A DNA stretch of 64,000 nt from Paralvinella palmiformis (lineage: Eukaryota > Annelida > Polychaeta > Terebellida > Alvinellidae), in NCBI GenBank assembly GCA_025642065.1, contig JAODUP010000040.1:1092501-1156500 (forward strand), in the 5' to 3' direction. Position numbers and translations under genes: made by a program. Shown here piece by piece: positions 7,946 through 63,274 of this stretch. The notes under the pieces are model-generated. The model made no database searches. It was not told the DNA's origin and saw only the letters and a list, made by a program, of their open reading frames with translations. The stretch's first letter is position 1; each line of letters opens with the position of its first letter.

Positions 7946-8213
7946 ATCAATTTGGTTCCAGTATATTGGTAACACCACATGTAAGTGTTAACGCGGTAAA
8001 ATTAGCGCAAGCCTAACCACAAGGCGCTTTTAGCTAAGGGGGTATTTGATTATATCAAGTGGTGGATCATAGTCTTTGGTGCATCCCCATGTAAGAGTAT
8101 ATTTTCTAATCATCAAAGATGTGTTTTTATTCCACTGCCCAGTAGGAGCCTTGAAACGAATGTATTTGCTTAGCTCCGTCCAGCAGGATTTACTTTCACA
8201 ACCCTGCTGGGTA

Positions 8214-8504
8214 CTAAACCATTGACATACGGTATGTTTACAAAATCTCTCAAATGATTATTAAACAGTTACGTCTGGGGACAGGCTATAGTAGTCACAG
8301 TTTGAGGAGAGGAGGGGCAAACTTTGGCTCCAGATTGGCATTCCCGGTGATATGATAAATTAATTAATACCTAAATAGCAATATCTCTATATAGATTACA
8401 GGTATGATATGTGGTGGTGTCACAGTGGGGGTAGAGCTCATGGTTTCCAGACCACTTTAATTGTTTAAATGCTCACTTGGGGTGCCACGGTCGGTGTACC
8501 TATT

Positions 8505-11710: not shown

Positions 11711-12199
11711 TCGGTACACTGTGTTAACTGTATATTGCTGTAGACGTAAACACGATACTGTAGACGTAAACATGATTCGGTTGGGTTGGGTACGGTTTAT
11801 AGTTTTGTGGGTTGGGTTGGGCACGGGTTCAGCATAATTTTATGTATGGGTTCGGGTTGGGTTCGGGTTGATATTTGTGGGTTTGGGTTTAGGTGTGGAT
11901 TGAGTAGTTGCGGGTTGGGTCGGGTTTGGGTTCAGCTTTCCAACCCGTGCATGACTCTATCATGCATCCCTGGACGTTTTGGCCACAGAAAATTTTTATG
12001 TTGGACGTTTTGGCTATATAATATTTTAATGTAAATGCACATAATATGATTTAATGTGATATTTGTAAGTGTAAATACGGATAATATAAAAGTATTTAGA
12101 AGCCATATTTGATATATATTATAATGTCTGCTTGACAAAGAACGTTTACTAGTAATACGTGATGGACAACTAACCAAGCGTTTCGAAGTGAAGACTGGA

Positions 12200-13035
12200 G
12201 TTAGACAACGCTGCTTGTTGTCCCTATTCCTCTTCCTTCTGGTCATCGATACTAAATACGCAACTTGAAGACCTGGACTTTGCCAACGACCTGTCACTGT
12301 TGTCCCACAGCCATCAACAGATGGAGGAGAAGACAAGTGAACTGGCAGCCATCTCTTCACGAGGTGGCTTAAATATACATAAATGCAGGACAAAAATCCT
12401 GAAGGTAAATGCAGCCAGTATGGAGCCAGTCACACTGGAAGGTAATGAAATTGAGGAGGTAGAGACGTATCTGGATAGTATCATTGATAAACATGGTGGT
12501 ACAGATGCGGATGTTAAGGCAAGGATTGGCAAGGCTAGAGGAGCATTTATACAGCTCAAGAACATATGGCGCTCCAAAGTGTTGTCATTACACACAAAGA
12601 TATGCCTGTTTAAATCCAACCTGAAGTATGTACACTGTATGGAGCAGAGACATGGAGGACAACTAACACCACCATCAAGAAAGTACACACCTTTATCAAT
12701 AACTGTCTGAGAAGAATCCTCCAGATTCCCTGGCCAAACACCATAAGTAACAGCGACTTGTGGGAGAAAACACACCTATAGAATGCTGGAGATGAGATCA
12801 GAAAGAGACGATGGGGGTGGATTAGCCACAAACTCCGGAAGCCAGCATCAACTATCACCAGGCAGGCCCTAACATGGAACCCACAGGGAAAGAGAAAAGA
12901 GGACGTCCAAGAAATAGGTGGAGAAGGGATCTCCTGACAGACACAAAGAAGACAGGTTACAGCTAGAGAGAGCTTGAATAGAAAGCCTAGGACAGAAAAC
13001 TTTGGAAGACTATGTCCCAGGAGGGGCGAAGGGTG
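12200..13035 (+). pseudogene. Degraded LINE reverse-transcriptase 3' part (copy 2)
   Basis: Same content and same defects as the copy at 6,540-7,375, including the FAND variant of the catalytic motif and the same frameshifts. Sharing all the lesions shows that the two were duplicated after the element had died. Confidence 0.8.
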
Positions 13036-13350
13036 AAAGGAAAAGAAACATTTAGGTTACTTTAATAATCAAAAACAATTCTTTGTAATTTTAACTGGCG
13101 TCAAAAGTAGTGTGTCTGAGAAACTCAAACTCTGGAATAGAAAGGTTTTTTTTTAAATTTCTTTGAAGAGACAATTGAAGAGTAAGTTGTGATTGCAGTT
13201 AGAGTATGTCACTAAAGGAGAATCTTAAACTAAAATACAAAGGGATTTACTCACTAAAAAGTATTTGAAAAGGCAACTGAAGAGTGATATGATGTGTGGT
13301 AATACCCATAACCTCCGTAGTCACCCCAACATCTGATGTGTTATCAATAA

Positions 13351-13605
13351 CAGACATGGGGTCAATTCCATTTTGTCAATTCCAATTCCACTCAATTCCA
13401 TTTGGTCAATTCCAATTCCACCTCAAATTTATCAATTCCAATTCAATTCCAATTCCAAATTCTTTTTGCCTAATTGTTTTTACCATGAGTAGGTACTCCG
13501 AGTAGTTTATATTCCAAGTAGATTTATCATGGAAGAAATATTTCTGAATTAAAAAATTAAATGATAAATTAATTTGTGGATTTAATTTAATTTTGCCAGT
13601 TCAGG
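13351..13605 (+). mobile_element. AATTCC-rich MITE-like insertion (copy 2)
   Basis: Identical to the insertion at 7,691-7,945 and carried along with the duplicated block. Confidence 0.5.
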
Positions 13606-13887
13606 ATCAATTTGGTTCCAGTATATTGGTAACACCACATGTAAGTGTTAACGCGGTAAAATTAGCGCAAGCCTAACCACAAGGCGCTTTTAGCTAAGGG
13701 GGTATTTGATTATATCAAGTGGTGGATCATAGTCTTTGGTGCATCCCCATGTAAGAGTATATTTTCTAATCATCAAAGATGTGTTTTTATTCCACTGCCC
13801 AGTAGGAGCCTTGAAACGAATGTATTTGCTTAGCTCCGTCCAGCAGGAGTCAGATCCTGTATTTACTTTCACAACCCTGCTGGGTAT

Positions 13888-14083
13888 TGTAAACTTGATG
13901 CCGTACAGATACAGATGAAAATGTTCGACTCCCCATCGAACAGCTACAGCTTCTCGCTCTGTTTGCGAGTAACCAGATTCTACGTTGTCCAGTGCACGTG
14001 ATGCATATGCGACAATTTGAACATCTCTACGGCCATCTTTAGTGGGTTGTATCTGGGTTAAAATAGCACCAACACCATGTTAT
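13888..14083 (-). pseudogene. Ty3/gypsy RNase H fragment
   Basis: Minus-strand reading gives HGVGAILTQIQPTKDGR, then VAYASRALDNVESGYSQTER, EAVAVRWGVEHFH and LYLYGIKFTI. This is the region where gypsy reverse transcriptase passes into RNase H. The frame is open but cut at both ends: upstream by a dispersed repeat at 14,083, downstream by the 2.1 kb block. The stretch that should link it to the integrase (rest of RNase H, zinc-binding part) is missing. Confidence 0.75.
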
Positions 14084-23255: not shown

Positions 23256-23445
23256 ATAGAGTTTTAACTCACAAGTTACAAGTGGGACAGATAAATAAAC
23301 ATCATGTCGAGCATACACCAGAAGGATACGACGTTCACTGAAATATTTGTTGGTGGCTTGCCATATCACACAACAGACCAAAGTTTGAGAGAATTATTTG
23401 AACAGTTTGGAGATATAGAGGAGGCTGTCGTTATGACAGACAGGG

Positions 23446-23479
<34 letters not shown>

Positions 23480-23502
23480 GCAAATCTCGGGTATATGGCT
23501 TC
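23256..23502 (+). CDS. RBM24/RBM38-like RRM first coding exon, frame disrupted by CAGA repeat
   Basis: An acceptor (ttattgcag) opens the exon; a short leader then reaches ATG at 23,304, and a consensus donor (CTTC|gtaagt) closes it. The translation starts [20 protein letters not shown] and continues [27 protein letters not shown] is the RNP2-type strand and the whole matches the N-terminus of the RBM24/RBM38 family, which bind mRNA through one RRM. After AVVMTDRET a (CAGA)n tract at about 23,451-23,480 is inserted. Beyond it, the expected KSR.YGF is readable in a different frame, as K-S-R-V-Y-G-F. As given, the exon is shifted out of frame, so this is a pseudogene, a variant allele or a sequencing error. 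No later RRM exon was found in the window. Confidence 0.7.
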
Positions 23503-24056
23503 GTAAGTATATATTGTGTATCATTAGTTATACTGCACTCTAGACGTACACATATAATCTTCTATATAAAATAACTACTAGTATTGCGATGCTGTCATTG
23601 CCATTGCAGATTTGATATTTTTCATATTGCATTATAGCTCATATTGTAATACTGAATAATCTGGTTATGTGAAAATATTGATATCACAGAATGGTTGTTA
23701 TACACGCGGTATTGTATTCAATTAGTGTTAAGTTATGAAGTCATACGTCAGTCATTGACGATTATACATATTAGATTTACTATTAGGCTTGTGTCCTGAT
23801 ATAGTTGTGTATTACTCTATCTATCAATCGCATAGCACCTGGATAACTACCGTGTCTTGTCCACAAGAAAGTAATTCAGAAAAGACAGAGAGATGGAAGA
23901 GTATAGTTTTAAAAGTTTAAATCTTCTAAAAACTGACATCGTCAAGATTGCTTTCACCAGTAAACAGGTGTGTGTAATCTTCAAGTATGTTACAAATCGA
24001 AGTGAAAACATGGACTTCGCGGTCAACCTATAACGCGTTCGACAGTTTGTATACTC

Positions 24057-44486: not shown

Positions 44487-46790
44487 CATGTATGCATGTC
44501 TGTGCATTCAGCAGAACATACTCGTTTCATTCCCTATCATATCAAGCGCTGCAAAGTTCAATAAGAACATCCAAGATGGTGTTTCCATGTCATCCACACA
44601 GTTCTTCACAAATGAAAATCGAATTACTGATAACATCTGTAGACGTTTTACATCAATTTCTGGCTGATGCAGCTCATGTAGAATGTGTTCCTTGTATCTG
44701 GTAACATCAAATATCTATCAAAAATTAAATTACATTGTTATTGTCTATTGCAACATATAATAAACAGAACATTCCCTATACTGACTCTCATACATCTAAT
44801 TTCATTAATTTACATATTTTATCGACTAGCAATATTAACCTTGACAAACCACTTAGGAACTTGGCCAAAGTTCTCTTTCAGTTCTTGTCCTATACATGAC
44901 ATACCAGGATTGATGTAATCCTTTGCTATGATAGCATTTTCAGACAGATTCCTGATCATTACATTTCCTTCATCATCACGCATCAATTCAATGCCCTGTT
45001 GAAACAAATCATTTACAAACATAAGCTAGTTTTAACATGATTTAGTATGGAAACAGTATTAAATAAAATACTTGAATATAAATGAATTATAACTCACTCA
45101 CTCACACACAGAGAGAGGGGGGAGAGGGGAGAGAGAGGGGGGAGAAAGAGAGGCTGTACTACACTGTATTACTAATACACAAAGATACTGCATACATGAT
45201 AGTTGTATTATATTTCAGGTTTAGCTTATTTGACAATAATTACTGTAGAATTTGAAGTATTTTATGTAGAAGGAACCAGCAAATATGAAATAAAACTGTT
45301 GTTTTATATTATCTTTAACAAGTTCATGTTACCTGTGAATTAATCCAGTTCTGAACTCTATAAGAATACATTTTCCATATACAAACAAAACTAGTTGGCA
45401 TTTACCGATAATTGCATGTGTTCATTTCATTTATTACTTTAATGATCAACATACCGGACCAATCTGGTTCCTGGTAGCCACACATTCCTCTTCACAGCCA
45501 TCATTGCTGAATGCTTTATAGTTTAATCCAATCCTGAAAAGATTTGAATTTCTTTACTGGACTAGATTAAAATAATATAACTTTATAAGAATAATATTAC
45601 ACATTTATTGGTGTGTAATGCATGCATGTGTGTGGGGTGTGGGTGCATGTGTGTTCTCATGTATTGCCTATTTAAATTGTAGTCAGAGGGATGTTGGCAT
45701 GAATCACAGGTCATTATCTGAATTGTTTAGCTTTCTTGATTATCACGTCATCATTGTCTGATATAAGGATTATTAGTCTAGCAGTTAAGCAAGTCAAAGG
45801 ATCGATTTACTCTAACTGTCAAGGATCATGAATTTCATACTACAAATGTGTCAAAACCTTTTCTTGTGTTAATTTATGAGGGCATAACATCACGGGTGGT
45901 TGATCACATTAAATATAGTGCTGGTGTCTCACTGAATTAATAAAAATGAGATGTAAAAGACCCTCTGAGGATCTAAATCACACTGGCAGGGACTACCCCC
46001 AAGGAATTTCATCTCCATCTTTCTATTTTTCTCCCCTGTGAGTGGTAGGGAAGGAAATACTATCAGCCTCTAACAAAAAGGATCAAACTGGAAATAACCA
46101 TTCACACTTCCATGCATCATCCCTTTTTTATGATCATAGATCATGAAAAAAAATCCAATCCAAATCCAATTAATAATAAAAATTATGCAACAAGTAATCC
46201 ACAGTTATTTTGACAACACTGATGTCCAGATTATTGTCAACTCAGGTTTTGATATCAATTAACCAGAATTATGGGTAATCTCTATTCTATACTCGTGAAT
46301 CTGACATTCCTGGTTACCATTAATTCTGCACTTCTTGCAATCTGGTGCTAGAGACACATCTGCTGATTTGAATTTACGTTTGTCAGGTGTTGTTTACCTC
46401 ACACACCATGTCTATTACACTAGAATGGTGTATAAACATACAAAGTAAAAAATGTGGGTCTTTATATAAGTTAGTTAGATTATTAAAAAAATGCTTGAAA
46501 ACTGAAAAAGGCTGTGAGACATCTGCTTTCAGACTAATTAATTCCAAACCAACCCAAAGTTACAATCAAACATAAATAATGTGTGACCAACAAGAGAACA
46601 TTGGAAATAATCCACAAAACTATCATTTAGGAAATAATTATTTTGAAAATTAGTTGTGTGGAATTAAACAGAATAAATAGGTCAGTGAAAGGGATAATAA
46701 TTGTTTCTTTATCAAGTGTGCATGACTTCAAATTAATTCAGGGGCACTACAGTACACCAGCAATATTGTGCACCTTGATGAAAGTGACTG

Positions 46791-46832
<42 letters not shown>

Positions 46833-49800
46833 AACAGACAATTCATAAATGTATATTTGTGTACTTTCAACATCTTTAGTGTCTAACAAAAAAAAAGACA
46901 TACATCCTGCCACATTGCTTCCATTATAAAGACCTACAACACTAAATTATCCCTTTACACTCATTCCAGTAAAGAGTTCTATGTTCACTGAATACTCACA
47001 CTCTTCCATTATATTGTGCACTGGAATTGTTGATGATCACATTCCAGTCTCTGAGGTAGACCTTTCCTATCAAATCACCTTTTTCCATATAAAACATCTT
47101 GGCCCAGATTTGTTGGCTTATGTCTGGAAAGCGTTCTATGGAATCTACTAGCTCTTCCTGTGTGTGATATACATAAAGATATCATATGCTAGAGACAAAC
47201 ACATGTTAGTATTTACTAATGTATGGATATGCATATGTTAATATATTTTTGTTATATGTGCATGCAAGGTTAAGAATAATCAAAACACATCACCAAGTTA
47301 CTGGTTCCTTAACAATAAACAAACCACACACACACACACATATTTAAGTAAATGGAACATACCCATATAAACATGGCAGCTGCAGTAACGACTGGTGGTG
47401 GCTTTCTGTGGAAGTGTGTAAATAAACAAGGATAAAATATTTCACAAACTTAATATAATTATTGAATATCTTACTATGTTGTAACTTACTTTGTTGTGAC
47501 TTATAAATCTCAAACATGAAATCTCAAATTTGATTGATCTAATCCCAATTGGGAATTTGAATGTTCAGTATTATTTACTGCCAAAAGTAACGTTGAACAT
47601 GTGGCTATTCAGAAATTAAAACCTTTTAAGAGAAGTTGCACTTCCAATTTTCTCTGGCAACTTGTTCCACAAAGTGGAGGATGCTACATTAAACAGAATC
47701 ACCAAAGTTAGAAGGTAATTTAATTATAATTCATTATTAGTCCACAGGATTAGTAACTTGGAAAATATCCTAGTCCTGTTTTGTATAACATTATAAATAC
47801 ACTTAAATGTCCATTTGAGGAAAAGTAACTACAAATTATTGGTAGCTGATTCCAAAAGAGCATCTGGTTTCAGCTGCTGAAGCACAGAGGAACCTAATTT
47901 TGTGTCAATTTCTGTTTCGATTGTTCATTTACAAATGCCATGAAACAAGCAAGTTGTTCAGATTTGAGTTCAAAAGGAAGTTTCATAGGCTAACGAGTGG
48001 CTTCAACTTTCTAATTCAAATCGTTCATACTAGACTGTCATGTATTTCACTGTGGCACATAAAGAAATATGACCACCTGGACTCCAGTAGGCTTCAGTGT
48101 GTAAGAAGCTGAATGGCTGCGCATGCTCCGGTTCATGTGAGTGATGGTTTAATGAGAAACAGGAGTGAGCCAGAAACCAACCAAGCAAGTATGATGAATT
48201 TATTGAAAATAAAACCTGGGCTGGGGGATACTATAGGTGGAATTTAGTGTGATGGTGATGACGACACAGTGTCCTGTTCCCACTGTCACACATTTTCCTT
48301 CAGCATGCACAACCTGTTGGCTGTTCAAAAACATTTTGACACAGATTGATAACTGAAACAGAATGGCCATATCTGGGCCATAACATGTAACTGCAGATGC
48401 GACTTTATTCTCGCCTGCTGGAAGACTCAAACTGAAAATTTACTAATCCTGTCAATTATTTCCTTGTCTTGGATGAAGGAGCTAGCATTAATTTCAAACC
48501 CAGCAATCACCATATGACTTGAGCCAAAACACAGATAGTTGACTGGGATGACTTTCTAATAAACAAGAATTCATATAGATATTCAGTAAAAACTGATACC
48601 AACAGAGTTGTTAGTAAGATCATTAATTGGTGTATTTAATTTTGAAGAATTGGGGTGATATGATCAAATTTTTGAGTATTTATCATTACGCAAATTGCAC
48701 CAGTTTTTAATATACTGAAGGTATTTGATGTTATAATGAGATAAGCTATTAAACATGGAATTACAATCAAAGCAAAATGTAACAATGGCATGTACCACTG
48801 CAAGCTGTGATTTTTGTGTCAAAAATGGCTTTAGACATTGGATGATCTTAAGGTGATATAGTAAGCACTGATTTATTTATGGGGCAGGTGTATTACTAAC
48901 ACAGAATGGTTTACGTATGAAAGGTTGTATTTCAGACTGTTCTGTCTTATGCCACGAACAGTCTGAGTGTATATTAATGTTAATTTCAAGCTCTCAATCA
49001 AACAGTCACATCTGTGTAAACCAGCAATGGTAAACATATTTGAAACAATACACCTTTGGTGCAATATCTCAGAGTTCAATCTATTTGGTAATGTACATTA
49101 CACCTTTGTATATTATCATAATACTGTTCAGTTGGAAGATAAATATCTACTTGTTTCCTTATTTATACAAGATTTCGGATTTCAAAATATTTACATCTTA
49201 AGCTTGTTGAAAAACAGTGCAATAATTATTCAGTATAACTAGCCTTATATTCTTTTACAGAAACATTCTTTTGATAGTATGCTTGGCCAAAATAACTTAA
49301 ATAATATGTCATATTTTAGAATCTGGACATAATGTCTTAAAGAATTATTAAGCAGTTAACAAATAGATCATAAAGGTATTTCTGCTTTCTTTTTGATGTA
49401 CTTTATTCTAATCCTGTTATGTTAAGATTTGTTTTACATATATGAATAACTATGTAAATTAAATCACATATACATATATGTATTTTAATAAAATAAATAT
49501 TTACATGATTTGCTAACATGAATGTGTATGTGTGTGTGTGTAATTATATACTGTGAATATATATATATATATATATATATATTTGTATATGTGTTCTGAC
49601 TCCAACACTTCATTTCGCCAACAGAAGGTGATACTTAATTTAATGTAAAATGACCTCGATAATCCAACAACACGAAAATGTTGCCAAATATTTCCACTGG
49701 TTCAGTGATGCAAGACACACCAACATGATCTCAATAATGGTTCATTAACCTGCCCACCCGTGATAATTGCTATATCATAACCAATTGCAATCATCCTCGA

Positions 49801-50162
49801 CCATACACACTGACACATGATCCTTCCATTGCCTGTAGCTATCTAATAGCCAATCATAATCATTCATGGCTAATTAAAAACACAAATATGTGATCTTTCC
49901 AATGAGCAGATCATGAGTTAATCTGATGGACTAAGTGACAAGAGTATTTCTTTACAGTGTCTGTAATTAACAAACATCAAAATTATCAATGACTTCAATA
50001 TCATTCCGTATCTTGGGCATGGTTATTGAATACTGGTTTAAATACGGAAGTAATTTAAAATGATTTAAAATGTGTGACACAGACTACCGGTATATCACGA
50101 ACTCAATATTCAGGCATTCTCGTTTTGCGTGAAAAACCTTGTTGGATTAATGGATTCTGACT

Positions 50163-50213
<51 letters not shown>

Positions 50214-53200
50214 TGACAATATTTTTTATGTAAATGTATATATTATAATTATATACACAAAGAAAGCAAAAAAGAGGATATTTGAATTCCTAGTTCAGTT
50301 GCTATCATAAACCTTTTTCTATTTAAGAAAAACAGGTAGAAGAAAACATAAATATTCAGTTGAATACTTTGGTAAATGTATGCCACTATATAGCAATAAT
50401 TAGGTAACATATCTGATAATTCTATAGCTATGTATGTATGCCATGGTACAAGCAATATTTCAACAGTAGACCATAATGAAAATATTTTTATGCCTGTTCC
50501 TGCCAGTGTCATCCTGACAGCTTAATGGATTTTGTTAATGTTGTAAACGATGTTTGTACAAAGTTCAGCTGAGATAGTAAATAAACCACATTTTATAAAT
50601 GTTCTTCATACTCCTGTCTTAATTACTAAAATTCTTGGTTAAATAATTATATTTTGTTTCCTATTGACAATCAGTGCAAAGATTCGTCTATAAATGGTTC
50701 AATCATTATAGGTTAATATTAGTTTGCCATGATTTATATGAGGCTATAAATGTTTGCGCTACTGATATGATGGCCTTTATTTTGATCATAATACACAACT
50801 TTGCACCATTGTTTGAATGAGTAATTTAAATAACACTTGATGATGGAGAATAAATAAGAAATTACAGTATTCCCCACTGACCTATCTCTATCTGCTGGTA
50901 ACAGTGGTATGTCACTTTCTTTTTGCTTTTTCTTTTCCATTTCAATCCGTTTCCTCTCAGCTTCTCTTCTTTCTGCTTCCTTTCTCTCTCTCTCAATCTA
51001 GTTTGGTTCAGTAAGTAAAACAAAAAGAAATAAAAACAAAACACAGACCAAAGAACAGATTGTTTTTATGTGAAAAAAGACAAACCAGATGCAACCTATC
51101 CTTCTATGCTGCATAAATTACAGAGAGTTTCTTAACATAAACACACAAAGTTATTTATCACATTCTTGTTCGTAAATCAGTTGACCTCACTGATGTACAA
51201 TTTTGTCTACTCAAGGCAATATGGCAGCCGAGAATTCAAAAGATTAATACGATGGAAATTATCTGACATGTGAATTATTAATAATGTTAATGACTGAAAC
51301 TTGAACTTTGTAGTATGTCTGTAGTCTGTGTTCACTTTATCAATTGGGAAATCTTATTAGAAATACAATTTTGTTGAAAATACCAATATCAAAATACTGT
51401 AAATATTCACAAACAAAATGTGGCTGGTCATGTCTTCTGTGCTGCTGTAAGTGCTATTCTGACCATGTACCTGTTCTTTGTGTGTTGTCTTGTCAAACTC
51501 CACATTTTCCATTTGAATCTTGTAGATGTATGTAGATATCTTAGCTATTTCTTGACACAGTAATTTAACTTCATTTTCTTCTTGTTTGGCCTGAGCTTGC
51601 ATCCTCTTCAGTAACTGTTTGGCCAAAAATCGTCTGGGGAAAACATATTTAATAATGAACACTTACACGTGTGTTATTATGTTATGTGAGAAATATGTGG
51701 ACCATACAATATACTGTAATGTCATCCGTGATACCACCACCCCATATATATACCCTATTTATAATGTAAGACTACAGAGTTGTTTCTAATAGTGTGAGAC
51801 AGGTCTCACTGGAGTCTTGAGAAATTGGCTGATTCTCATGATAAACTGTGGACCAAAAGTAAATTTGAGGAATGTGATTCTCAGCTTCAAAGTAATATAA
51901 CTGTTGGCTAAATATAATTATATTTATCATCAACAATGACACTCAGATAGATATGGTGATTACCTAATCATTAACTAATTATAGGTAATGACAAAAGAAA
52001 ATGAGGGAGTGATTCCCGGTTAATTACCTCAAAACTTCTAGAAATATTTTAGTTTGAGTTAGGAGCATCTGTATTGATACAGCTATGAATGTCAGCTAGA
52101 ACAACCAAGCTGACATTCAACATTCAGTTTGTCATTTGAGTTATATATTTATATGGATATGCACAAGATTAACATCTAGAATACCAAAAACAAAACACCA
52201 GAGGCATCCTCGTAAAAGTGATTGCCCAAAATTAAAGTAATAACAACTAATAAATATAGTTAATATTTTAGTCCATGTCTTTGTTTTACATATTTTATTA
52301 TCTAGACCTAAATTCAGACAAGGAAGTCCTATTTTAACAAACAATTTAGCTTATATATTATTATTTATTCTATACTTTAATTCCCTTTATTTAAACTAAT
52401 TATATTAACACCTAAAAACGAATTAAACTAGTTGAAATAATACTAGTAATAATACAATGCTTTCACTGACATTTGTTAAGCAAATAATGAAAGACATGAT
52501 CATATTACATATCTTCACGGTGAAGATATATAATGTGAAGAATTCACCAGCTGATATTATTACAGCCTAATTCAATTGCATGACTGAGGATGTAATATTG
52601 AATAAGTTAGATTTACTTATATAATTGTTGATGACTAATTGATGCTGAAAATAAAGGATCTGATTCAAGAATTAAGCAGTGCAAAAATATTTGTATTAAA
52701 TATGTTGACACAGCTAAACCACAGTATTGAAAGCAGAGCATACACAATTCCAGCTTAAATTGTTGGACGACAGGTACTACACGCGTATTTTTTGGTCGGC
52801 CCACACATTCTTTGTCAGCCACCAGCAAAATGTTTGTCAGACCTGCTGATTATTTTGAGCAGTCATTTCACTTTTCATTTCTAAGCGATAAAACACTGAA
52901 TACCCAACAAAACATGCTAATTATTACTCACTTCAGATTTTTTGTCGGGGACGGCCCAGGGGGAGGGGTTATGCCTTTTATTTGATGGTGATTAAAAGTC
53001 GTAGTTTTGTGTGCTTGGTTCAAATGTTCAAAAAATTTCTAAATGCTTTCATCACCAGTGACCACAAACATTACACAAAATGTTGCCAAAAAAATAGCAA
53101 CCATAGCAGCTAATTATAATTCTGTGCAAACATTATCAGACAAACAAGCCGACTAGTATAAATTTATGTCAGACATCATCATATTTTGGCTGACATGGCC

Positions 53201-53921
53201 AACGAATTTAGTATACTCTGATTGAAAGTCACAGGCCAAGATCCAGAAAACAATTAATCATTTGTTTCAGTAAGGAAAACACTTTTTATTACTTATATAC
53301 ACTGATCAGACCCAACTCTGATTACATTTGGCAAGTCTTGTATCAATAAGGTGATAAGTCAATACACCTTAATTCCATAGGTAATGTATGTGCTTTAAGA
53401 TTTTTTGTTACCATGAATATTCCAAAATATCAGTAAGTAATGTATTTGTGTGAGTTGCTCTTTATTATATTTATAATTAATTTGAAATTTCCATTTAAAC
53501 TCACAAATTTCCAACAAATATATTATATCCAGTATTTCTCATGAGATTTAGGATTTAAATTTAAATGCATCCAGATATAATTAACTATATTACCTGAGTA
53601 GTAGCTATAATAACAATGATAACAAAACAACAACATTCATCCATTTTGATAAAAGTTTACACAGATAATACATAAGAAAACCGACTTTATCTACTATATA
53701 TTTGGATTTAGATAACAAATGGCATCGCAACATTTGATAAGATATCACTTATTCTGTGGCCTCAAGTGGGTACCACTAAGGAAATGATGACATGGCAATA
53801 CAGGGAAGGTAACTAGTCAACACAATAAAGCTAAAAACACAGTCCAATTTACAGAAGCATTACATAAACTAACGAAAACACTTATGAAATATATAACAGC
53901 AGTGCAATTCAAATTCAATCC

Positions 53922-54000
<79 letters not shown>

Positions 54001-57000
54001 TCAAAACATGACATCTTGTAGATACACATAATTCATATCATACCTAACACATGCTTGGCATTTAGTTACGCCTTTGTTGATTCGATCCATCTGAATCTGA
54101 AGTTGTTCTGTGTGCCAGTAACGAAGAAAAACCTACCAAAATCAAACAAATGGTTTTCATCCATTTTAATACTTATAATTTTTGAAGCTACATTTACAGA
54201 AATACTGTACAAAAGAACTACATGATGATGATGATTCATAAACAAAGCTGAGTTATATTTAAGTGATGTTTAAGAAAATAAATTTTTATCATGGTCATTG
54301 AAACTAACCTTGGTTTTTCCAATTTCATAATCTTTCAGACCTGCACTTTTCAGAATCTGCCTGCATTTTTCAGCCGAAGTAGTAGCCAAAGTGGGATTTG
54401 AACAGAGCAGTCCATACCTGAATTAAATTGATACACCTTTAGTGACTTCCTACAAATAAATATAGGTAAAGTTGGTCTTCAGAAATAAACATTCAAAATG
54501 GTATTTTTCCAGTTGTAAGAGATTTCTCACAAATATATCCAACAGATCTTTTCTCATAACATTAACACATTATCATAATGATATATTAATAACACATTAA
54601 TCTAGAGTACTTTTAAAACATTAAACACAGTATTATAAAGTATGATAAAGTTCCAACAGCTATAATTAATACGAGAAAATGATAACCAGAGATTCATTTC
54701 TGTTTTTACCTTTTCTAATCATGTAACTCGCCTTAAAAGCTATGAACATAACATATTCCCCTTATTTAGTCACAGAAGTAATTAACATATTTTGAAAATA
54801 AGCAACAGGCAGGATCACTGAGTAAAGAAAGACCAACAACAGAACACTAAATTATACCTTTCCAAAAAGAGCTCAAATGGCAGACGGCTAGCATATCCCT
54901 GGCGACGTATCTTTACTGTTTCCAACACACCTGTATACCTGAGCTGCTGCAGTACAAGATTATCTTGGAAGATCTCTGGTAGCTTGTCTGTGTTTGGCTT
55001 GATGCACCTGTATGTCAATAGTACACAGTATACTAGTGAAAAGTCAGCAACTGAACAAAACTAAAACACTACTTGCCAAAACAAACAAGCTAAATTTAAA
55101 TGCTCTCCTGCCAATGGGCCAGAGATTTAATCAACTGAGATTTACTTACATAAGTATACACATGCTACATTACTTATACATGTTGTATGTTAACTGGCAA
55201 TATTCAGAATAAGTCCCCCCTATATAAATTTAACCAGTTACTCACTCGCTGGTAACATAGGATATATCTGGTCATCCTCCCATTGTCACATTCATTGGAC
55301 ACGATACATGGCTCAAAATCATTATGATATTTTAATACTGGTCATAGTGATGTCAAATTAGATACCATCTAAATACTTTTTATATAAAATAGATTGATCA
55401 GATATGTCACTGTGACTCATTTCTAAATGAAATAAATGAGGTCACAGATATGTTTGCCTCAGTAACAATTGCCTCTGTGGCCTTATGGGTTAGAGCATGG
55501 GACTTTCTTACTCTTGGTCATACTGCGCATTTATCATTGGGGTTGGGCATGTTGGGATGATTTATATTATGGCCTCTTCCTGGACTTACCATTTTGTTAA
55601 CATTACTCACTTACATTGACGATAGAAAATATTACCTTATAAAATGTGGTTCTCCCGAGTGCAGTTTGTCCATGAGATGCTCAAGTGAACTCTATAAATG
55701 AATGAAATGACACAAGCATGTATTTAAGGAAAAGACTGCTATCACATTATACATCCATAGTAAATTTACTTAAACAAGATACCTTTTTAATTGTTATTAT
55801 GTAAACTATAGCAGTAAAATAGGAACTGAATGAATCAAAAGAGAAGGCCATCACCTACCATGAAATGTTGTCCTATGGTATTACCTGGCTTATCACCAAG
55901 TGCTTTTCTTCCATACGTTCCTGGCTGCCTGTGAAATATGACACACTTCATCAGAAATTATTAATGTTTCTTCAACTCTTGTGCTAACAAGCCATAAGCT
56001 GTCATATGATAATCTAAGAAAGCTGTTATGCAATCAACTATTATGTCCAAGAAACATTCAGAAATGTTTAGTGAAGTCAGTTAATAGGAACCAGACTTAA
56101 ATGACTAACTTGAACTGATGAGCTTTGTTCTTTACTGCCATTGATATGCGACTTCCAGTGGATGATGGCTGCACAGAGTTTGGCACAGTTTTAACAAGGA
56201 CTGATGTTCTATTCCGTTTTGGAGCCGAAATCCTAAGAAAGATTAATTAATGCACCTGTCAAGTCAATGAATTAGTCTTACAATCAGCTATGCCATGTGG
56301 AATAATGCTATCCTCATACATTGAGGCTCATATTGAACTAGATAACTTACTTTGCGATCATGGAACCCCTTTGTGACATCTCCGCATAAAACATCTTACA
56401 TATGAAATCACTCTCACTGTTCTTCAAACATTCATCCAAATTGCTGCTAAGTGTGTCACGATTTTTCTCCAGGAACGCTTCACAATCATAAATAACCTGA
56501 ATTTGTGTTAAGATGTCAGTTCTAAATATGCAGAAATAAACATGTATATGACTAATGATTTACTTAGTTAAAAATACATATCTGTATAAAATAAAAATGC
56601 CTCTAATAAAGTCAGTATCGTAATTGTTAATGACTGACCTCAAGTGAGAAATGACTTTAATACAGAACAACCATTAATTGTAAATTGTATTATAGGAAGG
56701 ACTGAGTGAAATGTAGAAAATGGCTTCCTTGCAGATCAAGTGTAGTCATTTGTAAAAATGTGATAAGAGAAAAATAAAACCTTGATCAATGATATATTAC
56801 AATTTTTCTGAAGTACAGGTTTTGTGTCATGAGGGACCTGCCTGAGATACAATTAATATAGAAAAATTCTGACACTCATTAACATTTTTTTAGGAGCAGA
56901 TTAAGGTTGTTGTGTATTTAAAATTACTCCTGAGTTTCCTAGTTAATGTGTACTATATTTTCTCCTCAAAACATTGCTTAAAATTGGATTTCTTTTTCCA

Positions 57001-57909
57001 ATATCTTTAATATGGTAGATATGTAGATATAATATTGCTAACATACTACTACAAACATATTCTAAGGTAATAAAAATCAGAAAGAACACAACATCAAGTT
57101 GATCAAGTTTAAACTTTTTCCCAACGAGACAGGTAACACTTAATTGATCCCATAATCTGGAGTTTTGCATAACAGTGCATTATCAATTGCACCATAGGTT
57201 TACCCTGAATCACAGACAGGGATGAATAGATCCATCCTATGCAATGAGCCAGATACAAACACTCTGGCATATAGCTCAATAAAAGGAAAAATACAACAAG
57301 TATTATATTGTTTCAGGTTGGCCCACAGAAAGTAACCAAATCTTACTTCAAGGCTCACCTATTAATATATTACTCAGACTAGGATCTCGGAGCAGGATCA
57401 TTTTGGAAGTATATGTTAGCTGATGGTATGCAGATTAGTTAATCCTTCCTGATAGAAGATACAATAATTTGCATGCTGTAGTTTCTAATCAGAGCTTTTT
57501 TAAACATGCCACACATAGACACTGAAAAGTGATTATTGTCATAGGCATCTCTACACACACACGTATATACAGTATATTATATGGATCTGGGAATAGAGTA
57601 ATGTGATGGAATTTAAAAAGCCATGAAACATTACATGTTTTATTATAAGAAGAACATTTTAGACAGAAAGAGAGAATGAGTGAAAAAATCATGTTGAATG
57701 GAACTGAAGGTAAGTAATATGAAAGGATTTTAGTTTTCACTTACTGGGCCTGCATAATGATGAATAACAAACTTCAATGTTTGACCTTTTGGACGCTGGA
57801 AGCTAGGGTTGCTCTTGAAGTTGTCAGTTATCTGATCAAGAAACTTTCTAGCAGATGCTGCTGGCATCCTCATCTGATCATCCAGAATAGCAAAAAATCC
57901 CATCTTTGC

Positions 57910-57943
<34 letters not shown>

Positions 57944-59131
57944 AATAATCAGTTCACTCATGACCAGTTTAATCAAATCTTTTGCCATTTTGTTACTAAC
58001 TTATTGTATCATCTTGAATCTGGCAACAGGTACAAAAACACTTGAAACCAATCCAGCTTTACATGAACACATGATGAATATATATATGAGTGTGCATATG
58101 CTTCTATCATGAAAGCTTTAACAAAATGGGGGTTGACCTTGCCGTAAACTGTAAATCTATGAGACCAATACAAACTACTCATAGCTCAGACATCTAAGCC
58201 GTGGCTGAGAAGAGCTCACAGGTCAAAGTGGGTCACATCTTACATAATTATCATATTGCTAGCCCCAACAACACCTCTATTATCTTTAATATCAAACCAA
58301 TCAATTTCATTCATGCATTACTGATTTGTTTTTATAATCACTGATGTTTTGTAGATTTCTTTACTATCCACTTTATGCTGTCTATGCATACCATATGTAC
58401 ATGGATAATACTACATGTGTGAATACATGCAACCATTGTTTATGTACAGATATAATTATGCACCCAACAAATAATATGCTATTTCAGATATCAAGCAGCC
58501 AAAATCACTGGTCATGGAAAGTAATATAAATTCACTTTCAATCTGTAGGACGTTACACTATTACAGCAAAACAATAAGACTATCATTATTATTATATATA
58601 AAAGCAATTTTTAACATCTTAATGATAAACAATAACAATTTTACCTTAGTAAACATTGTCAACAGTTCTGTATTATCGACAAACTTTATGTCCTTTCCTT
58701 CAATTCCCTCCTTCTTGTATTCTTGCATCTCCCATTGAAAGATATGTTGATTGAAGAAGTTGTGCAGCTGCTCATTGGCCATATTTATGCACAGCTGCTC
58801 AAAACTGTTACTCTGGAAGTTTTCAAAACCAGCCAAATCAAGGATTCCTATCCATTTCCTGTTGGTAACCCGAATCCTGTCAATAGAAGAAAAGGCCTGA
58901 GTTAATTCTGATTAAATGAGGCTATACAATTAAAACATCATGTTTCTATAAAGCTAAATTTATACCCTGCTTTTAAAAAATATAATAGAATTAAGCACTT
59001 TAAAAATTCATTTTCACCATAACTCTATCTATTAAATCCAAAAGAATGCCTTAATACAAATGAATTCAGTGGCAACTAGACTTGCTTCTTCAAATTCATG
59101 AGTCAAAATCCCTGTTTTAAGACATTTGACA

Positions 59132-59170
<39 letters not shown>

Positions 59171-60187
59171 ATGGTATATGTTATGTGTAAATTTTAGTAA
59201 GACTGACCTACGCTCTGGTTTCAGAAGTAAGTTGACCTGTCTTACAGTCCAGGCAAACAGTCGTCCATAAAGGGCCTTAGCTAAAGCATCCCGTCCATCA
59301 TTAGCTTGAGTTACGTTCTTCATTGCTAACATTCTATCTCCTGTGAAACAACAATATTATTTTTCTATGGATAAATATTTAACATCCATCCTTTTATTAA
59401 AAAAATTCCCTGACAACAGTTTATAATAATTACATCATCAGGTATTTATAATAACAGAAGATTATGAAAAGCTTTGCTGCAAACAAAACATACCGAGTTA
59501 CAAATAACAGATCTACCTATAATTATAAATATTTATTTTTAATCAGTGATATAGGTCAGAATAATTAATTTACAAATGTATTCAAGGTGCTTTTCAGCTT
59601 ATCTCAGTAAAGAATAACAGTAATCATACAAACCTGAACCTTTCATCACAGTAACATTTGATATGAGTGCCTTAGCCAACTCTTCACAGTTTACCATTAG
59701 CAGCTCAGATGCTATATGATAGGAATAAAAGTTTGGTGAATTATTTTGTAAGAATGCAATAAAGCATATTTCTGCCAAGAGAGGAGATATATTTAATTAT
59801 TCATAATCAATTTTAGCATCAGGTGTTTTAGCTGATTATTCTTAACAGATTTTAGCAGAAGGACTGTTTAGCATCTCCAATTTTAATTTAATGAAGACTC
59901 TTTCATTATGAAGTCATTAAAATAGTGTGTGAGGATATCGCTTTACCCATAACCAGACTGTCTTCATTCTTGATCAGTACACTGTCATCTGTGGCAGATT
60001 CATCTTTGATAAAAACAATATCTGTCAGATGCAGAACAGCTGCTAATGTGGCCAATATACCTTGTTCTTCCTGAATTTTGAATATTCATACATAAAGGAT
60101 TTGTATTCAAGGTTAATACTGTAATAGATATCAAAGTGTGAGATCACAAGAGAAAAATATTTAAACTCCAAATAAAATATGGGAAAT

Positions 60188-60227
<40 letters not shown>

Positions 60228-61024
60228 AATACTGCAATACAGTCTATTTATTTACCAGTTCTTTAAAGCCTGTTATCTTAAACAATGTCTGTAGATTATC
60301 CCACATCTTTTTGCACTCGTCTTTCTCTTCTGCTGATTCAAACACTGGAGATCCATCAACTGGCTTAATTATTCTAAAATACATCAAATATTTCCTTACA
60401 ATATTTCCTTAATTATTTATATGTTTTAAGTATCTATATTAAATATTCAGCATTGACAAAAACATTCTTTATTTCTATACATAAAAGGTACACTTTTATT
60501 GTACATTGGAACATTATTCTAGAATCATTTAACTGACCTGTGTTCATCTGGTTGGTCAAGCTTGTTAGCTTTAAGTACCTCTCCAGGAATGCCAGCAAAC
60601 ATATAATAAAATATGTGAAAGTTCTTCTCACCATGAGCATGTGATACCACACGAGACTTCTCCAGTAAATACTCCATAATATGTGCTATATGTGTGTGAA
60701 AAATAGATGAAACAGTGACTAAATATTGAAATGAAAATAAATAAAGACACAGAGAGAAGTATAAGTTAGGGCTCTTTATTACAGATAGTTTGCAAATTAA
60801 AATTTTAAATAATGTTTCAGGCTGTTTTAGTGAATTGTCTCATATTAATAAACATTAATCATCAGTTTACAAGATATAAAATATTTAAGCATATACCAAA
60901 TATCAATACCTTCTGTGATACCACCTGTATCATCAAAATTCAACTGTATGAATTTTCCAAACCTACTGCTGTTGTTATTGAGAACAGTCTGTGCATTGCC
61001 AAATGCTTCCAGCGATTAACCTAA

Positions 61025-61074
<50 letters not shown>

Positions 61075-61130
61075 ATGTATATACACATCTATATATTGTT
61101 GCCCATGTTTTATATAAAATCTAATGTATG

Positions 61131-61180
<50 letters not shown>

Positions 61181-61244
61181 ATGTATATACATATCTATAT
61201 ACTGTTGCCCATGTTTTATATAAAATCAAAGTATGTATGTATGA

Positions 61245-61295
<51 letters not shown>

Positions 61296-61343
61296 ATGTA
61301 TATACACATCTATATATTGTTGCCCATGTTTTTATATATAATG

Positions 61344-61407
<64 letters not shown>

Positions 61408-61469
61408 ATGTATATACATATTATATACTGTGTCCATTTTTATATAAAATCTAAAGTATGTATGTATGA

Positions 61470-61522
<53 letters not shown>

Positions 61523-61574
61523 ATGTATATACACATCTATATATGTTGCCCATGTCTATATCAAATTATGTATA

Positions 61575-61619
<45 letters not shown>

Positions 61620-63078
61620 ATGTATATACACATCTATATATTGTTGCCCATGTTTTATATACAATCTATGTTTAAATATGATAAAAATATTTTAAGCTGA
61701 AAATCTTATTCTTTTATGATTTGTTATTAGATAAATGAACTATATATATAATACTGAAATGACTATCCTCTTATTCGAGGTATTTATGAAATTGCATTAG
61801 ATGATGATTGGTGCTTTATGGCCACTTTTGTGCACATGATAGGCTAAATGGGCTGAGTGACCTCCAAAGGTAATGAAGCGAAGTCAAAGATCAATCACAC
61901 TTCAGATATGCCTACGCCAAGATTCAAACTCGGGTGGTAGTGATCTGTGGTCTAATGCGCTACCAGTTAGACCACGGAGGCACCCCCAAAATTGCATTAG
62001 TGAGATACAATGTAGTTCATGCTATGCCTGATGCAGAAAAATAGCTGATCTTTGTTACTTCTCAAATTACTTAAATTTCGTCAATAATAGGGGTATATCA
62101 ACAATACATTATCTGCCTAATATTAATAAGCTTACTAATATTTGTCTGCTGGTTACTTTAAATTAGTTTATTGTTAGATACTGTCACAAACAGATAGTGC
62201 TCTCATATTGTAACTGTAATTCCCCAAAGCTACATCCAGAAATATATCAATTTAATACAGTAATAAGTGTCTTAATATTCAGTAAATATCAGCACAGTTA
62301 TTTATGTAATTATTTCTTGAGATGAATATTATTTAAAAATTAACAATTAAAACATATATTTTGTGATTTATTAATATATATACTCATTTAGCATTAAACC
62401 AATAAATTGATCCCAAGAAGTACTACTGAATAATAATAAAAATAACACATTTACAGTATTTTATACATGAAAATACAAATTTCAGTTTCAAGATTATCTG
62501 CAACTTCAGTGATTTTTTAAGAAAATAAATTGGTGTTTAACCCAATTTTCTATCAACACATTTCATGTGTGTGTTTTCCTGAATAAAGTGATATTTTATT
62601 CCTTATTTGCAACATAATAATGATAATCATACAGTCACTCAATGCCAATGAGGGAGACCTCTGTGAACTAACTGGTAGCACAGTTGGCCACATATCTATG
62701 GCACCTGGGTTCAAACCCCAGCTGGGCTATGTCAGAAGGGTGTTTCATCTTTCACTTCACCTCATTACCTTTGGAGGTCGCTCGGCCCATTTAGCCTACC
62801 TTGTGCACAAATGTGGGCATAAAACAGCAACATTTATATTTTTACTCCATGTAGATGATCATTGTCTATCCTTGAGTAGAGTTAGTAACTCCAACGAGAC
62901 ACAAACAATCACTGATCAAATATCCAATATGTTAACTACTGTTGTTAACTATTGTAGGTAGTAAAAAGTGATCTAGATGCCAGCAACTAAGAATCAGGTC
63001 ATGATCACAATGTTTACAGATTTCTAAGTCAGAGACATTATAAAACGTAGCCACCATAATGTGGCAGTTTCAATTCAG

Positions 63079-63124
<46 letters not shown>

Positions 63125-63274
63125 TTAAGTGTTAAATAGATCTCAAGAAACTTCAGTTATAAGCAGAATGAATATTCATAATTACCATGACAATACGCTC
63201 ATGCAAATCTGAATGATCTTGGTTACAAAGCTGTGCAATCTGCTGAACAATGTATTTTGTACTCTCAGTCTTTC
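42803..63274 (-). CDS. Unconventional myosin with C-terminal MH2-like domain (5' end outside window)
   Basis: Twenty-six exons on the minus strand, from the P-loop exon (63,274) downward. Exons 1-25 total about 1,034 codons to a TAG at 43,792; the upstream N-terminal exons are not in the window. Order: P-loop GKTES, switch [11 protein letters not shown], loop and relay, switch II DLAGFE, actin-binding loop 2 (basic), FIRCIKPN, SH1 helix, converter, one IQ-type motif ([14 protein letters not shown]), a long charged helix rich in E, R and K, a proline-rich linker, an MH2-like domain of about 195 residues, and a short tail. The motor should hydrolyse ATP on actin. MH2 domains in SMADs bind other proteins, so the tail may bind a partner; that is inference. 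I cannot assign a myosin class. All junction phases agree except at exon 2. Confidence 0.85.
43792..44013 (-). CDS. Myosin exon 25: tail with in-frame stop
   Basis: It reads [20 protein letters not shown], then [29 protein letters not shown] and ends at TAG (43,792-43,794). The IKPYSFEPL stretch resembles a motif seen in P2X7-tail-like proteins (PY.FEP), but it is too short to call. An alternative weak donor (AAAAAG|gtcaca) ending at 43,855 would join exon 26 in frame. Confidence 0.6.
   Translation of the reverse strand, partial: GLLYDIIFAKHHIVPQLVYKCLDQLTDKMSDSNESFDVLRGIKPYSFEPLAKKVTGSINCEELATASTHMDPE
44137..44201 (-). CDS. Myosin exon 24: tail after MH2
   Basis: It reads [20 protein letters not shown], ending CAG|gtatgc. 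The phases fit exon 23 (1) and exon 25 (0). No known motif; arginine-rich. Confidence 0.65.
44226..44484. repeat. TA, GT and TC microsatellites in an intron
   Basis: (TA)n at 44,226-44,253 and mixed GT/TCTC tracts at 44,350-44,484. Long apparent ORFs on the plus strand here are repeat translations. Confidence 0.9.
44522..44714 (-). CDS. Myosin exon 23: MH2-like domain, end
   Basis: It reads [19 protein letters not shown], then [37 protein letters not shown]. It parallels MH2 KIFN...F...L, then (C)TIRMSFVKGWG...TPCWIEIHL..PL..L. The GWG of the receptor-binding L3 loop is replaced, and there is no C-terminal SSxS phosphorylation site. A good donor (ACGA|gtatgt) lies 14 bases before an in-frame TGA at 44,508-44,510, so splicing or stopping are both possible. 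Confidence 0.8.
44840..44995 (-). CDS. Myosin exon 22: MH2-like domain, third part
   Basis: It reads [36 protein letters not shown] and VPKWFVK. With exon 21 this gives IGPGIEL...[15 protein letters not shown], parallel to MH2 IG.GV.L.Y..GEVY...LSD.SIFVQ. Phase 0 at both ends. Confidence 0.8.
45099..45160. repeat. GA-rich simple repeat in an intron
   Basis: Imperfect GAGAGGGGAGA units. Confidence 0.85.
45455..45533 (-). CDS. Myosin exon 21: MH2-like domain, second part
   Basis: It reads [20 protein letters not shown] and RNQIGP. It corresponds to the MH2 strand F(C/S)LGLLSNV and the following variable loop up to the R..IG.G turn. Phase 2 in, phase 0 out. Confidence 0.75.
45776..46060 (+). 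repeat. tRNA-derived SINE (family 2), diverged copy in an intron
   Basis: Shares the body of 4,880-5,180: CATCACGGGTGGTTGATCAC, AATTTCATCTCCATCTTTCT and CTCCCCTGTGAGTGGTAGGG. The head (AGTCTAGCAGTTAAGC) is strongly decayed. Confidence 0.6.
47000..47157 (-). CDS. Myosin exon 20: MH2-like domain, first part
   Basis: It reads [39 protein letters not shown] and [13 protein letters not shown]. This matches the start of SMAD MH2 domains, W..I.YYE....VGEVF....SVIVDG. Phase 0 in, phase 2 out; donor GAGT|gtgagt. Confidence 0.75.
47363..47405 (-). CDS. Myosin exon 19: short linker
   Basis: It reads [14 protein letters not shown]. Acceptor cttccacag and donor TGG|gtatgt match the phases of exons 18 and 20. 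Confidence 0.75.
47620..47720 (-). pseudogene. Small LINE C-terminal remnant in an intron
   Basis: The minus strand reads [20 protein letters not shown] and ATSLKRF before a stop. LWN.LP..(I/V)..A.SL..FK is the typical end of many non-LTR retrotransposon polyproteins. Surrounding coding is not preserved. Confidence 0.5.
48100..50880. other. Intron 18 interior, no gene seen
   Basis: The interval between exons 18 and 19 holds (TA)n at 49,556-49,582 and (TA)n(GA)n at 50,165-50,209. No exon with matching phase was found. Confidence 0.5.
50882..50997 (-). CDS. Myosin exon 18: charged single-helix segment
   Basis: It reads [38 protein letters not shown]. Alternating E and R/K over some 27 residues fits a stable single alpha helix rather than a coiled coil, since a heptad of hydrophobic residues is lacking. 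Phase 0 in, phase 2 out. Confidence 0.85.
51471..51633 (-). CDS. Myosin exon 17: IQ motif and helical neck
   Basis: It begins [20 protein letters not shown], completing one IQ-like motif (C-Q-A-C-V-R-R-F-L-A-K-Q, light-chain binding). It continues as a helix to THKEQ. Only one IQ motif is visible, so the lever arm would be short unless the charged helix extends it. Phase 2 in, phase 0 out. Confidence 0.85.
53926..53997. repeat. (TA)n(GA)n microsatellite in an intron
   Basis: Directly visible, close to exon 16. The same TA-then-GA arrangement occurs at 16,600, 40,450, 50,170 and 63,080. Confidence 0.9.
54044..54132 (-). CDS. Myosin exon 16: end of motor, start of IQ
   Basis: It reads [20 protein letters not shown] and GVTKCQACV. 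Unlike most myosins, this segment ([12 protein letters not shown]) has a W-H pair before the lever helix. Phase 0 in, phase 2 out. Confidence 0.85.
54309..54417 (-). CDS. Myosin exon 15: converter
   Basis: It reads [18 protein letters not shown], then [23 protein letters not shown](L/F)R at the end of the motor is split between this exon and the next. Phase 2 in, phase 0 out. Confidence 0.85.
54858..55007 (-). CDS. Myosin exon 14: SH1-SH2 helices
   Basis: It reads [40 protein letters not shown] and [19 protein letters not shown].(K/R)IRR.GY is one of the most diagnostic myosin blocks. Phase 2 at both ends. Confidence 0.92.
55465..55560 (+). repeat. Possible tRNA-like SINE head
   Basis: GCCTCTGTGGCCTTATGGGT followed by TAGAGCATGGGACT resembles a tRNA 5' half, but no B box follows clearly. 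Confidence 0.3.
55636..55691 (-). CDS. Myosin exon 13: motor
   Basis: It reads [18 protein letters not shown], leading to the R of FIRCIKPN. Phase 0 in, phase 2 out; donor TAAG|gtaata. Confidence 0.85.
55885..55924 (-). CDS. Myosin exon 12: 40-base microexon
   Basis: It reads [13 protein letters not shown]. Two AGs are close together; only the second (ggcag) keeps the frame through to exon 13. Donor CCAG|gtaata, phase 2 in, phase 0 out. Confidence 0.7.
56110..56232 (-). CDS. Myosin exon 11: loop 2
   Basis: It reads [19 protein letters not shown] and [18 protein letters not shown]. This basic, serine-rich stretch is at the place of loop 2, the variable actin-binding surface loop. Phase 2 at both ends. 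Confidence 0.75.
56351..56496 (-). CDS. Myosin exon 10: motor
   Basis: It reads [20 protein letters not shown], then [25 protein letters not shown] is the conserved strut-side helix. Phase 0 in, phase 2 out; donor AAA|gtaagt. Confidence 0.85.
57745..57909 (-). CDS. Myosin exon 9: motor, lower 50 kDa
   Basis: It reads [19 protein letters not shown], then [16 protein letters not shown] and [12 protein letters not shown]. The usual G.(F/L)..LDEE..FP is altered to [13 protein letters not shown], and HYAG is retained. Phase 0 at both ends. Confidence 0.85.
58645..58876 (-). CDS. Myosin exon 8: switch II and relay helix
   Basis: The longest motor exon. It reads [14 protein letters not shown] (switch II, D..GFE), [36 protein letters not shown] and [14 protein letters not shown]. 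Phase 2 in, phase 0 out; donor AAG|gtaaaa. Confidence 0.9.
59208..59340 (-). CDS. Myosin exon 7: motor, TEDS-site region
   Basis: It reads [36 protein letters not shown] and [19 protein letters not shown] is a hallmark. Counting 16 residues back from DALAK gives an aspartate, so an acidic residue may occupy the TEDS site; the count is approximate. Phase 1 in, phase 2 out. Confidence 0.85.
59634..59711 (-). CDS. Myosin exon 6: motor
   Basis: It reads [19 protein letters not shown] and VTVMKGS. This is the usual segment of (A)SELL(G)V..EEL..AL before the cardiomyopathy loop. Phase 1 in, phase 1 out. Confidence 0.8.
59947..60070 (-). CDS. Myosin exon 5: motor
   Basis: It reads [20 protein letters not shown] and ends [19 protein letters not shown] is a typical motor helix. 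Phase 0 in, phase 1 out; donor ATGG|gtaaag. Confidence 0.85.
60256..60373 (-). CDS. Myosin exon 4: motor
   Basis: It reads [19 protein letters not shown], then [17 protein letters not shown]. It enters in phase 2 (completing R) and leaves in phase 0 at GAACTG|gtaaat, in frame with exon 5. Confidence 0.8.
60538..60685 (-). CDS. Myosin exon 3: motor, upper 50 kDa
   Basis: It reads [38 protein letters not shown] and [21 protein letters not shown] and NFHIFYY are strongly conserved motor strands. Phase 1 in, phase 2 out; donor ACAG|gtcagt. Confidence 0.85.
60910..61020 (-). CDS. Myosin exon 2: switch I, with an apparent 4-base gap
   Basis: It reads [20 protein letters not shown] and [14 protein letters not shown], which contains switch I (NNNSSRFGK, nucleotide and magnesium contact). 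Donor GAAG|gtattg, phase 1 out. Immediately after the acceptor (tatatttag) come GTT AAT and then CGCTGGAA. The family would have V-N-P-L-L-E here, and the exon is 4 bases too short to keep the frame from exon 1. The acceptor abuts a TA minisatellite. Confidence 0.75.
61021..61660. repeat. Tandem array of TA blocks with a conserved spacer
   Basis: Five to six units of about 105-120 bases. Each has a TA tract followed by AAAGTATGTATATACA, CATCTATATATTGTTGCCCA and TGTTTTATATAAAATC. It abuts exon 2 of the myosin gene. Confidence 0.9.
61812..61983 (-). repeat. tRNA-derived SINE (family 3), copy 2
   Basis: Minus-strand head GTGGTCTAACTGGTAGCGC with the B-box-like GAGTTTGAATC. The body matches copy 1. 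Confidence 0.75.
62651..62826 (+). repeat. tRNA-derived SINE (family 3), copy 3
   Basis: Plus-strand head AACTGGTAGCACAGTTGG with B box GGGTTCAAACCCC. The body includes CATTACCTTTGGAGGTCGCT. Opposite orientation to copies 1 and 2, in the same intron as copy 2. Confidence 0.75.
63078..63124. repeat. (TA)n(GA)n microsatellite in an intron
   Basis: Directly visible tract next to exon 1. Confidence 0.9.
63186..63274 (-). CDS. Myosin exon 1 in window: P-loop
   Basis: The exon completes the Walker A motif: a split glycine, then [17 protein letters not shown] and HERIVM. Acceptor ttttgcag, donor ATG|gtaatt; phase 1 in, phase 0 out. The GESGA half of the P-loop must lie in an exon beyond 64,000. 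Confidence 0.85.

Follow-up and report, generated by a model that had tools for sequence, protein, structure and literature searches.

Myosins that carry an MH2 domain behind the motor have been described before. In the sections available, PMC5583752 catalogues class-80 myosins and lophotrochozoan "orphans" with MH2, the orphans grouping with or beside class 36 and being polyphyletic, and PMC3942036 records one choanoflagellate and one sponge MH2 myosin and proposes that MH2 originated on myosins; no tested function for these proteins was found in those sections of either paper. A second setting of the domain is the N-alpha-MH2 of Drosophila Expansion and Rebuf (PDB 4r9p), which lack a motor and carry MH2 N-terminally, followed by a further tail and a CM2 motif. 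In the available parts of the respective papers, chitin deposition requires the two proteins as well as the synthase Kkv (PMC4305360), and extracellular chitin depends on their N-alpha-MH2, whereas polymerisation and apical placement do not (PMC9894549). Here we compare with these systems a minus-strand gene in a window of 64,000 nucleotides, part of contig C1942 in the 594-Mb genome of the annelid Paralvinella palmiformis. Judged from its sequence, the predicted gene belongs to the class-80 lineage of MH2-tailed myosins and encodes, in order, a myosin motor, a single IQ-like stretch, a charged helix and MH2. The original prediction, which had drawn a myosin with a SMAD-type MH2 at 44522-63274, left open whether such a class was catalogued. 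The motor-MH2 fusion is already in print, and nothing essential sets the window gene, one of two recent copies, apart from the catalogued forms, to which the duplicate pair adds a new member.

The gene was modelled as 21 exons (e1-e17 and e19-e22) from 63274 to 44508, with phases that agree from e2 through e22, in keeping with the matching junctions predicted on the MH2 side. Run on provisionally joined exons, Pfam listed six matches, among them Myosin_head (PF00063, 483 bits) and MH2 (PF03166, 53.5 bits, cut-off 25), as the prediction had anticipated; scored on their own, the four MH2 exons reached 64.8 bits. MH1 is not among the six matches, and no chitin synthase domain was matched in the joined exons. 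A protein search yielded 3,432 proteins at E<=0.001 among 7,975 scored, and PF00063 and PF03166 occur together in 40 of the best 120 of these homologues. Named carriers come from Owenia, Lingula, a chiton, bivalves, hemichordates, echinoderms and the sponge Corticium, many of them annotated as myosin-III-like. Of 621 candidates from a search with the MH2 region alone, none reached E<=0.001, a null that reflects the limit of word sensitivity, since MH2 myosins are in the database.

It is conceivable that the motor and MH2 are two adjacent genes, the MH2 exons belonging to a separate Expansion-like gene. The junction between e17 and e19 is weak, and Expansion itself has no motor (PMC4388265). 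Set against this are the single proteins with both domains (40 of the best 120 homologues), a second copy of the gene, described below, that keeps order, strand, phases and splice sites, and the position of MH2, which is terminal here and N-terminal in Expansion. We consider two separate genes extremely improbable; the exons are best read as one gene for a predicted motor-MH2 fusion.

Motor trees took in 25, then 21, of the 40 MH2 myosins. The first included P0054, a record that carries IQ and motor only; in the second, of 45 rows, a single clade (99/96) unites the MH2 myosins, the ambulacrarian ones among them, with two chitin-synthase myosins of this genome. The tree placement sought in the original prediction is thereby given: the window motor groups with class-80 motors, in a subclade (97/96) with Capitella and Helobdella motors and four unnamed proteins. 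The window gene thus shares motor, C-terminal MH2 and membership of one motor clade with the class-80 and lophotrochozoan orphan forms (PMC5583752) and the choanoflagellate and sponge forms (PMC3942036), as described in the available sections. The present, larger sample unites ambulacrarian, sponge and lophotrochozoan forms with chitin-synthase motors, whereas the orphans are polyphyletic in the available part of PMC5583752.

The next nearest motors are those of class-3 and SH2-tailed class-3-like myosins. Class-3 myosins have a kinase in front and the SH2-tailed ones an SH2 behind, and neither has MH2; no N-terminal kinase stands in front of the motor in the MH2 homologues inspected. Among the matches listed (P0046-P0102), the class-3-like group with C-terminal SH2 spans gastropods, bivalves, echinoderms, an annelid, a coral and a sponge. 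Given this proximity, the window gene could encode a class-3-like protrusion motor of microvilli or bristle cells, whose MH2 would bind an unrelated adaptor or kinase, chitin playing no part. The myosin-III-like names of the sequence homologues, the closeness of the motor to class-3 and SH2-tailed myosins, and the presence of MH2 myosins in echinoderms and hemichordates all fit such a role, which we regard as plausible if rather doubtful; against it, the tail is nearer Expansion than any other solved structure.

The tail is encoded by e19 (47000-47157; N-alpha helix region and first strands), e20 (45455-45533), e21 (44840-44995) and e22 (44508-44714; the end of MH2 with a short L3 loop, closing at a stop at 44510-44508 or at a splice, A/gtatgt, immediately before that stop). 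Its sequence matches Expansion better than Smads, with e19 aligning to the N-alpha helix region, and MH2 profile scores likewise favour the Expansion type. The L3 loop shows no gap against Expansion 4r9p and is six residues shorter than that of SMAD4. A full-length model of the homologue P0001 retrieved only myosin entries or myosin fusions among the best 50 structure matches listed, and MH2 was therefore folded alone. The predicted structure obtained in this way, that of a homologue's MH2 and not of the window protein's, has Expansion as its closest match among solved structures; it shows a helix at residues 3-15 before the first strand, and its alignment to 4r9p begins at model residue 1. 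The tail is accordingly predicted to be an Expansion-type N-alpha-MH2 and not a Smad-type one, sharing with Expansion and Rebuf the N-alpha helix region, the short L3 and the overall fold.

The original prediction had pointed the tail toward Smad-type signalling, a reading that found no support. Smads share the MH2 fold, and the MH2 profile still reaches 82 bits on SMAD4, as would suit a tail that serves Smad or receptor signalling on a motor that carries or anchors TGF-beta pathway parts. Smads differ, however, in their long L3 with GWG, their MH1, the SSxS end of R-Smads and the lack of an N-alpha helix. The window MH2 has neither GWG in L3 nor an SSxS tail, as had been noted, whereas the same genome holds two Smad loci with GWG, one of them with SSVS; activation in the manner of receptor Smads is, as was also foreseen, unlikely. 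The extra N-alpha helix occupies the Smad trimer interface and is argued to block Smad-like trimers, and Expansion has no role in TGF-beta signalling (PMC4388265). A Smad signalling role is thus very unlikely.

The best trees agree with the Expansion type. Of the 40 MH2 myosins, 38 entered the MH2 tree, P0023 and P0034 being left out as incomplete, judged by eye; three Smad rows fall outside (100/99), and Expansion nests in the protostome myosin MH2s both there (95/97, 43 rows) and in a second tree (97/97, 39 rows) that left out four long rows (the genome's own I-Smad, P0044, P0010 and P0006). Its neighbour is Lingula, with weak support. The MH2 of Expansion had no match in the annelid's own genome, a null that is uninformative on a separate Expansion gene because PF03166, with nine matches on four other contigs, misses the window's own MH2 exons as well.

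A second MH2-myosin gene lies in the same genome at C432:843051-813754. The window protein has 19 matches on that contig, 13 of them at least 80% identical and the remainder 58.6-79.3% identical, one of these spanning an intron. All 21 modelled exons are present in the C432 copy with splice sites and phases kept; in both copies AG precedes 21/21 exons and GT stands at 20/20 internal ends. Exon lengths are identical in 19/21, e17 differing by 6 nt, in frame, and e2 by 4 nt, and the introns can be aligned over 5,953 sites with a divergence of 0.125. Between the copies, the motor has dS 0.114, dN 0.035 and dN/dS 0.31 (589 codons; p 2e-7), MH2 has dS 0.103, dN 0.050 and dN/dS 0.48 (198 codons; p 0.043), and the helix part has dS 0.097, dN 0.058 and dN/dS 0.60 (96 codons; p 0.25, not significant), the p values coming from one-sided Fisher tests on rounded counts. 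Because exons and introns align and dN/dS is low, we conclude that the motor and MH2 were duplicated jointly and that both have been constrained afterwards, MH2 only just significantly.

The 4-nt difference was missed in the original prediction, which had a single series of exons reading from motor to MH2. The minus-strand order of motor, IQ-like stretch, helix and MH2 stands; there is no read-through from e1 (63186-63274) into e2 (60910-61020; LEAFGNA, switch), since the window copy has 4 nt fewer than C432 at the start of e2 (61007-61020; GTTAATC, the gap, then GCTGG) and is out of frame there. The C432 copy is open across the modelled exons and reads VNPLLEAFGNA where the window copy loses its frame. 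There are thus two gene copies, and that in the window is frame-shifted in this assembly. A micro-exon restoring the e1/e2 frame had been sought, and two pattern matches were obtained, neither of which fits; comparison with C432 then revealed the deletion. The cause may be decay, an allelic difference or an assembly slip next to the long TA repeat that adjoins the site. If the window copy were a recent pseudogene and only that on C432 functional, both the deletion and the open C432 frame would be accounted for. Yet the deletion is the sole frame-breaking difference among the 21 modelled exons, and the TA repeat alongside makes an assembly slip plausible, so that we put a pseudogene at slightly below an even chance.

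A further link to chitin synthase comes from the motor. PF03142 matches this genome in 12 pieces on seven contigs, of which six, all except C510, were checked for motor exons, C1971 at one of two sites. Same-strand motor exons occur upstream of chitin-synthase-like matches on two of the six, at 495.3-502.2 kb before 509.7-510.7 kb on C2160 and at 21.4-35.8 kb before 45.2-46.3 kb on C1971; none were found in the stretches examined on C1120, C2133, C2042 and C509. Each of the two loci is probably one class-36-type gene. Class-36 chitin-synthase myosins have a related motor with a tail of chitin synthase and membrane spans, not MH2, and the C2160 and C1971 motors fall within the MH2-myosin clade, next to MH2 myosins of molluscs (95/96).

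Since the tail is of Expansion type and the motor is kin to chitin-synthase myosins, chitin synthase is the favoured partner, and we propose that the protein is an actin motor which, through its Expansion-like tail, positions or activates a membrane synthase such as chitin synthase. The protein would presumably work as a motor: the parts for ATP use are encoded, with GESGAG and GKT on two exons and an Asp ahead of DALAK in e7 that we take, by manual count, to be at the TEDS position. The single IQ-like stretch, followed by an ER/K-rich helix, points to a single-headed protein whose lever is short and stiff; in the P0001 model this region forms one long helix (742-829). Such a single-headed, short-lever motor would move along or hold actin in apical protrusions, and its MH2 tail would bind a membrane complex, setting where or when that complex works. 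The likeliest client would be chitin synthase or a similar polymer synthase, by analogy with Expansion and Rebuf, which serve Kkv in flies.

Several observations weigh against this proposal, to which we give a little less than even credence. Three other placements of Expansion survive the AU tests, namely outside all myosin MH2s (p 0.177), outside the lophotrochozoan ones (p 0.098) and with Smads (p 0.148), and the tree placement of Expansion, which rests on one long branch, cannot settle the question; nor is a clade of MH2 myosins without the chitin-synthase motors rejected (p 0.14). PF03142 also matches 4/14 control genomes, bacteria included, and a match to it is therefore not by itself proof of chitin synthase. 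In flies, the MH2 of Expansion acts without any motor, and Rebuf and Expansion are also reported in luminal matrix recycling (PMC6176944) and cited for a role in receptor tyrosine kinase signalling (PMC4388265).

A wider scenario, which we offer tentatively and think somewhat improbable, is that Expansion and Rebuf are motor-less remnants of an ancient animal MH2-myosin, that MH2-myosins were the ancestral motorised cofactor of chitin synthase, and that class 36 swapped MH2 for the synthase itself. If so, motor, Expansion-type MH2 and chitin synthase would be one functional unit in three arrangements. If the tail of MH2-myosins is the chitin-translocation module of flies and their nearest motors carry chitin synthase, their role could be tested in animals whose bristles, tubes and shells are chitinous, and the origin of Expansion and Rebuf would be explained. 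The likeness of the myosin MH2 tail to Expansion looks new. Neither it nor the three-way arrangement was found in the literature, a finding weakly supported by an incomplete check of partly available sources. The word "myosin" is absent from PMC9894549, PMC4388265, PMC4305360 and PMC6176944; for chitin synthase, myosin, MH2 and Expansion in combination only the two myosin papers were found, in which "expansion" is also an ordinary word and the Expansion protein was not searched.

At its 5' end the gene extends beyond the stretch originally noted, as it does at the other. The P-loop placed in the series is split, its second half (GKTESTK...) lying in e1; three further 5' exons encode the start and the first half (GESGAG) and fall slightly beyond the window's edge, at window positions 64948-64371. 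The sequence MENPEVINDLATL is preceded by an acceptor-like AG, and an additional upstream exon is therefore possible. The motor continues through e3 (60538-60685), e4 (60256-60373), e5 (59947-60070), e6 (59640-59711), e7 (59208-59340), e8 (58645-58876; switch II DLAGFE and relay), e9 (57745-57909), e10 (56351-56496), e11 (56110-56232; loop 2 region), e12 (55636-55689; between the loop 2 exon e11 and e13), e13 (54858-55007; CIKPN, SH helices and converter) and e14 (54309-54417; converter). The motor ends in e15 (54044-54132) with the first half of the IQ-like stretch, the second half and helix follow in e16 (51471-51633), and e17 (50866-50997) holds the charged, ER/K-rich helix. The e17 donor is weak (ACT/gtaatt), its GT and phase are also present in the C432 copy, and a small additional exon may lie before e19; 14 candidates fitted a simple splice pattern there, none of them supported. 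Downstream, a candidate last exon (DNWKKL...) at 42914-42798, minus strand, resembles the W-K stretch that ends annelid homologues; an in-phase join to e22 needs another exon, and its reading frame stops earlier in the C432 copy. A consensus of the myosin tails contains conserved WSK, YSW and WAK stretches.

Elsewhere in the window, an open frame at 11388-11723 is presumably integrase-like, and a plus-strand open frame at 23295-23540 may resemble the beginning of an RNA-recognition motif. The open-frame translations of two blocks, at 6078-8257 and 11750-13915 and separated by 5,660 bases, are identical; the blocks may have arisen by recent duplication or be a mobile element present twice.
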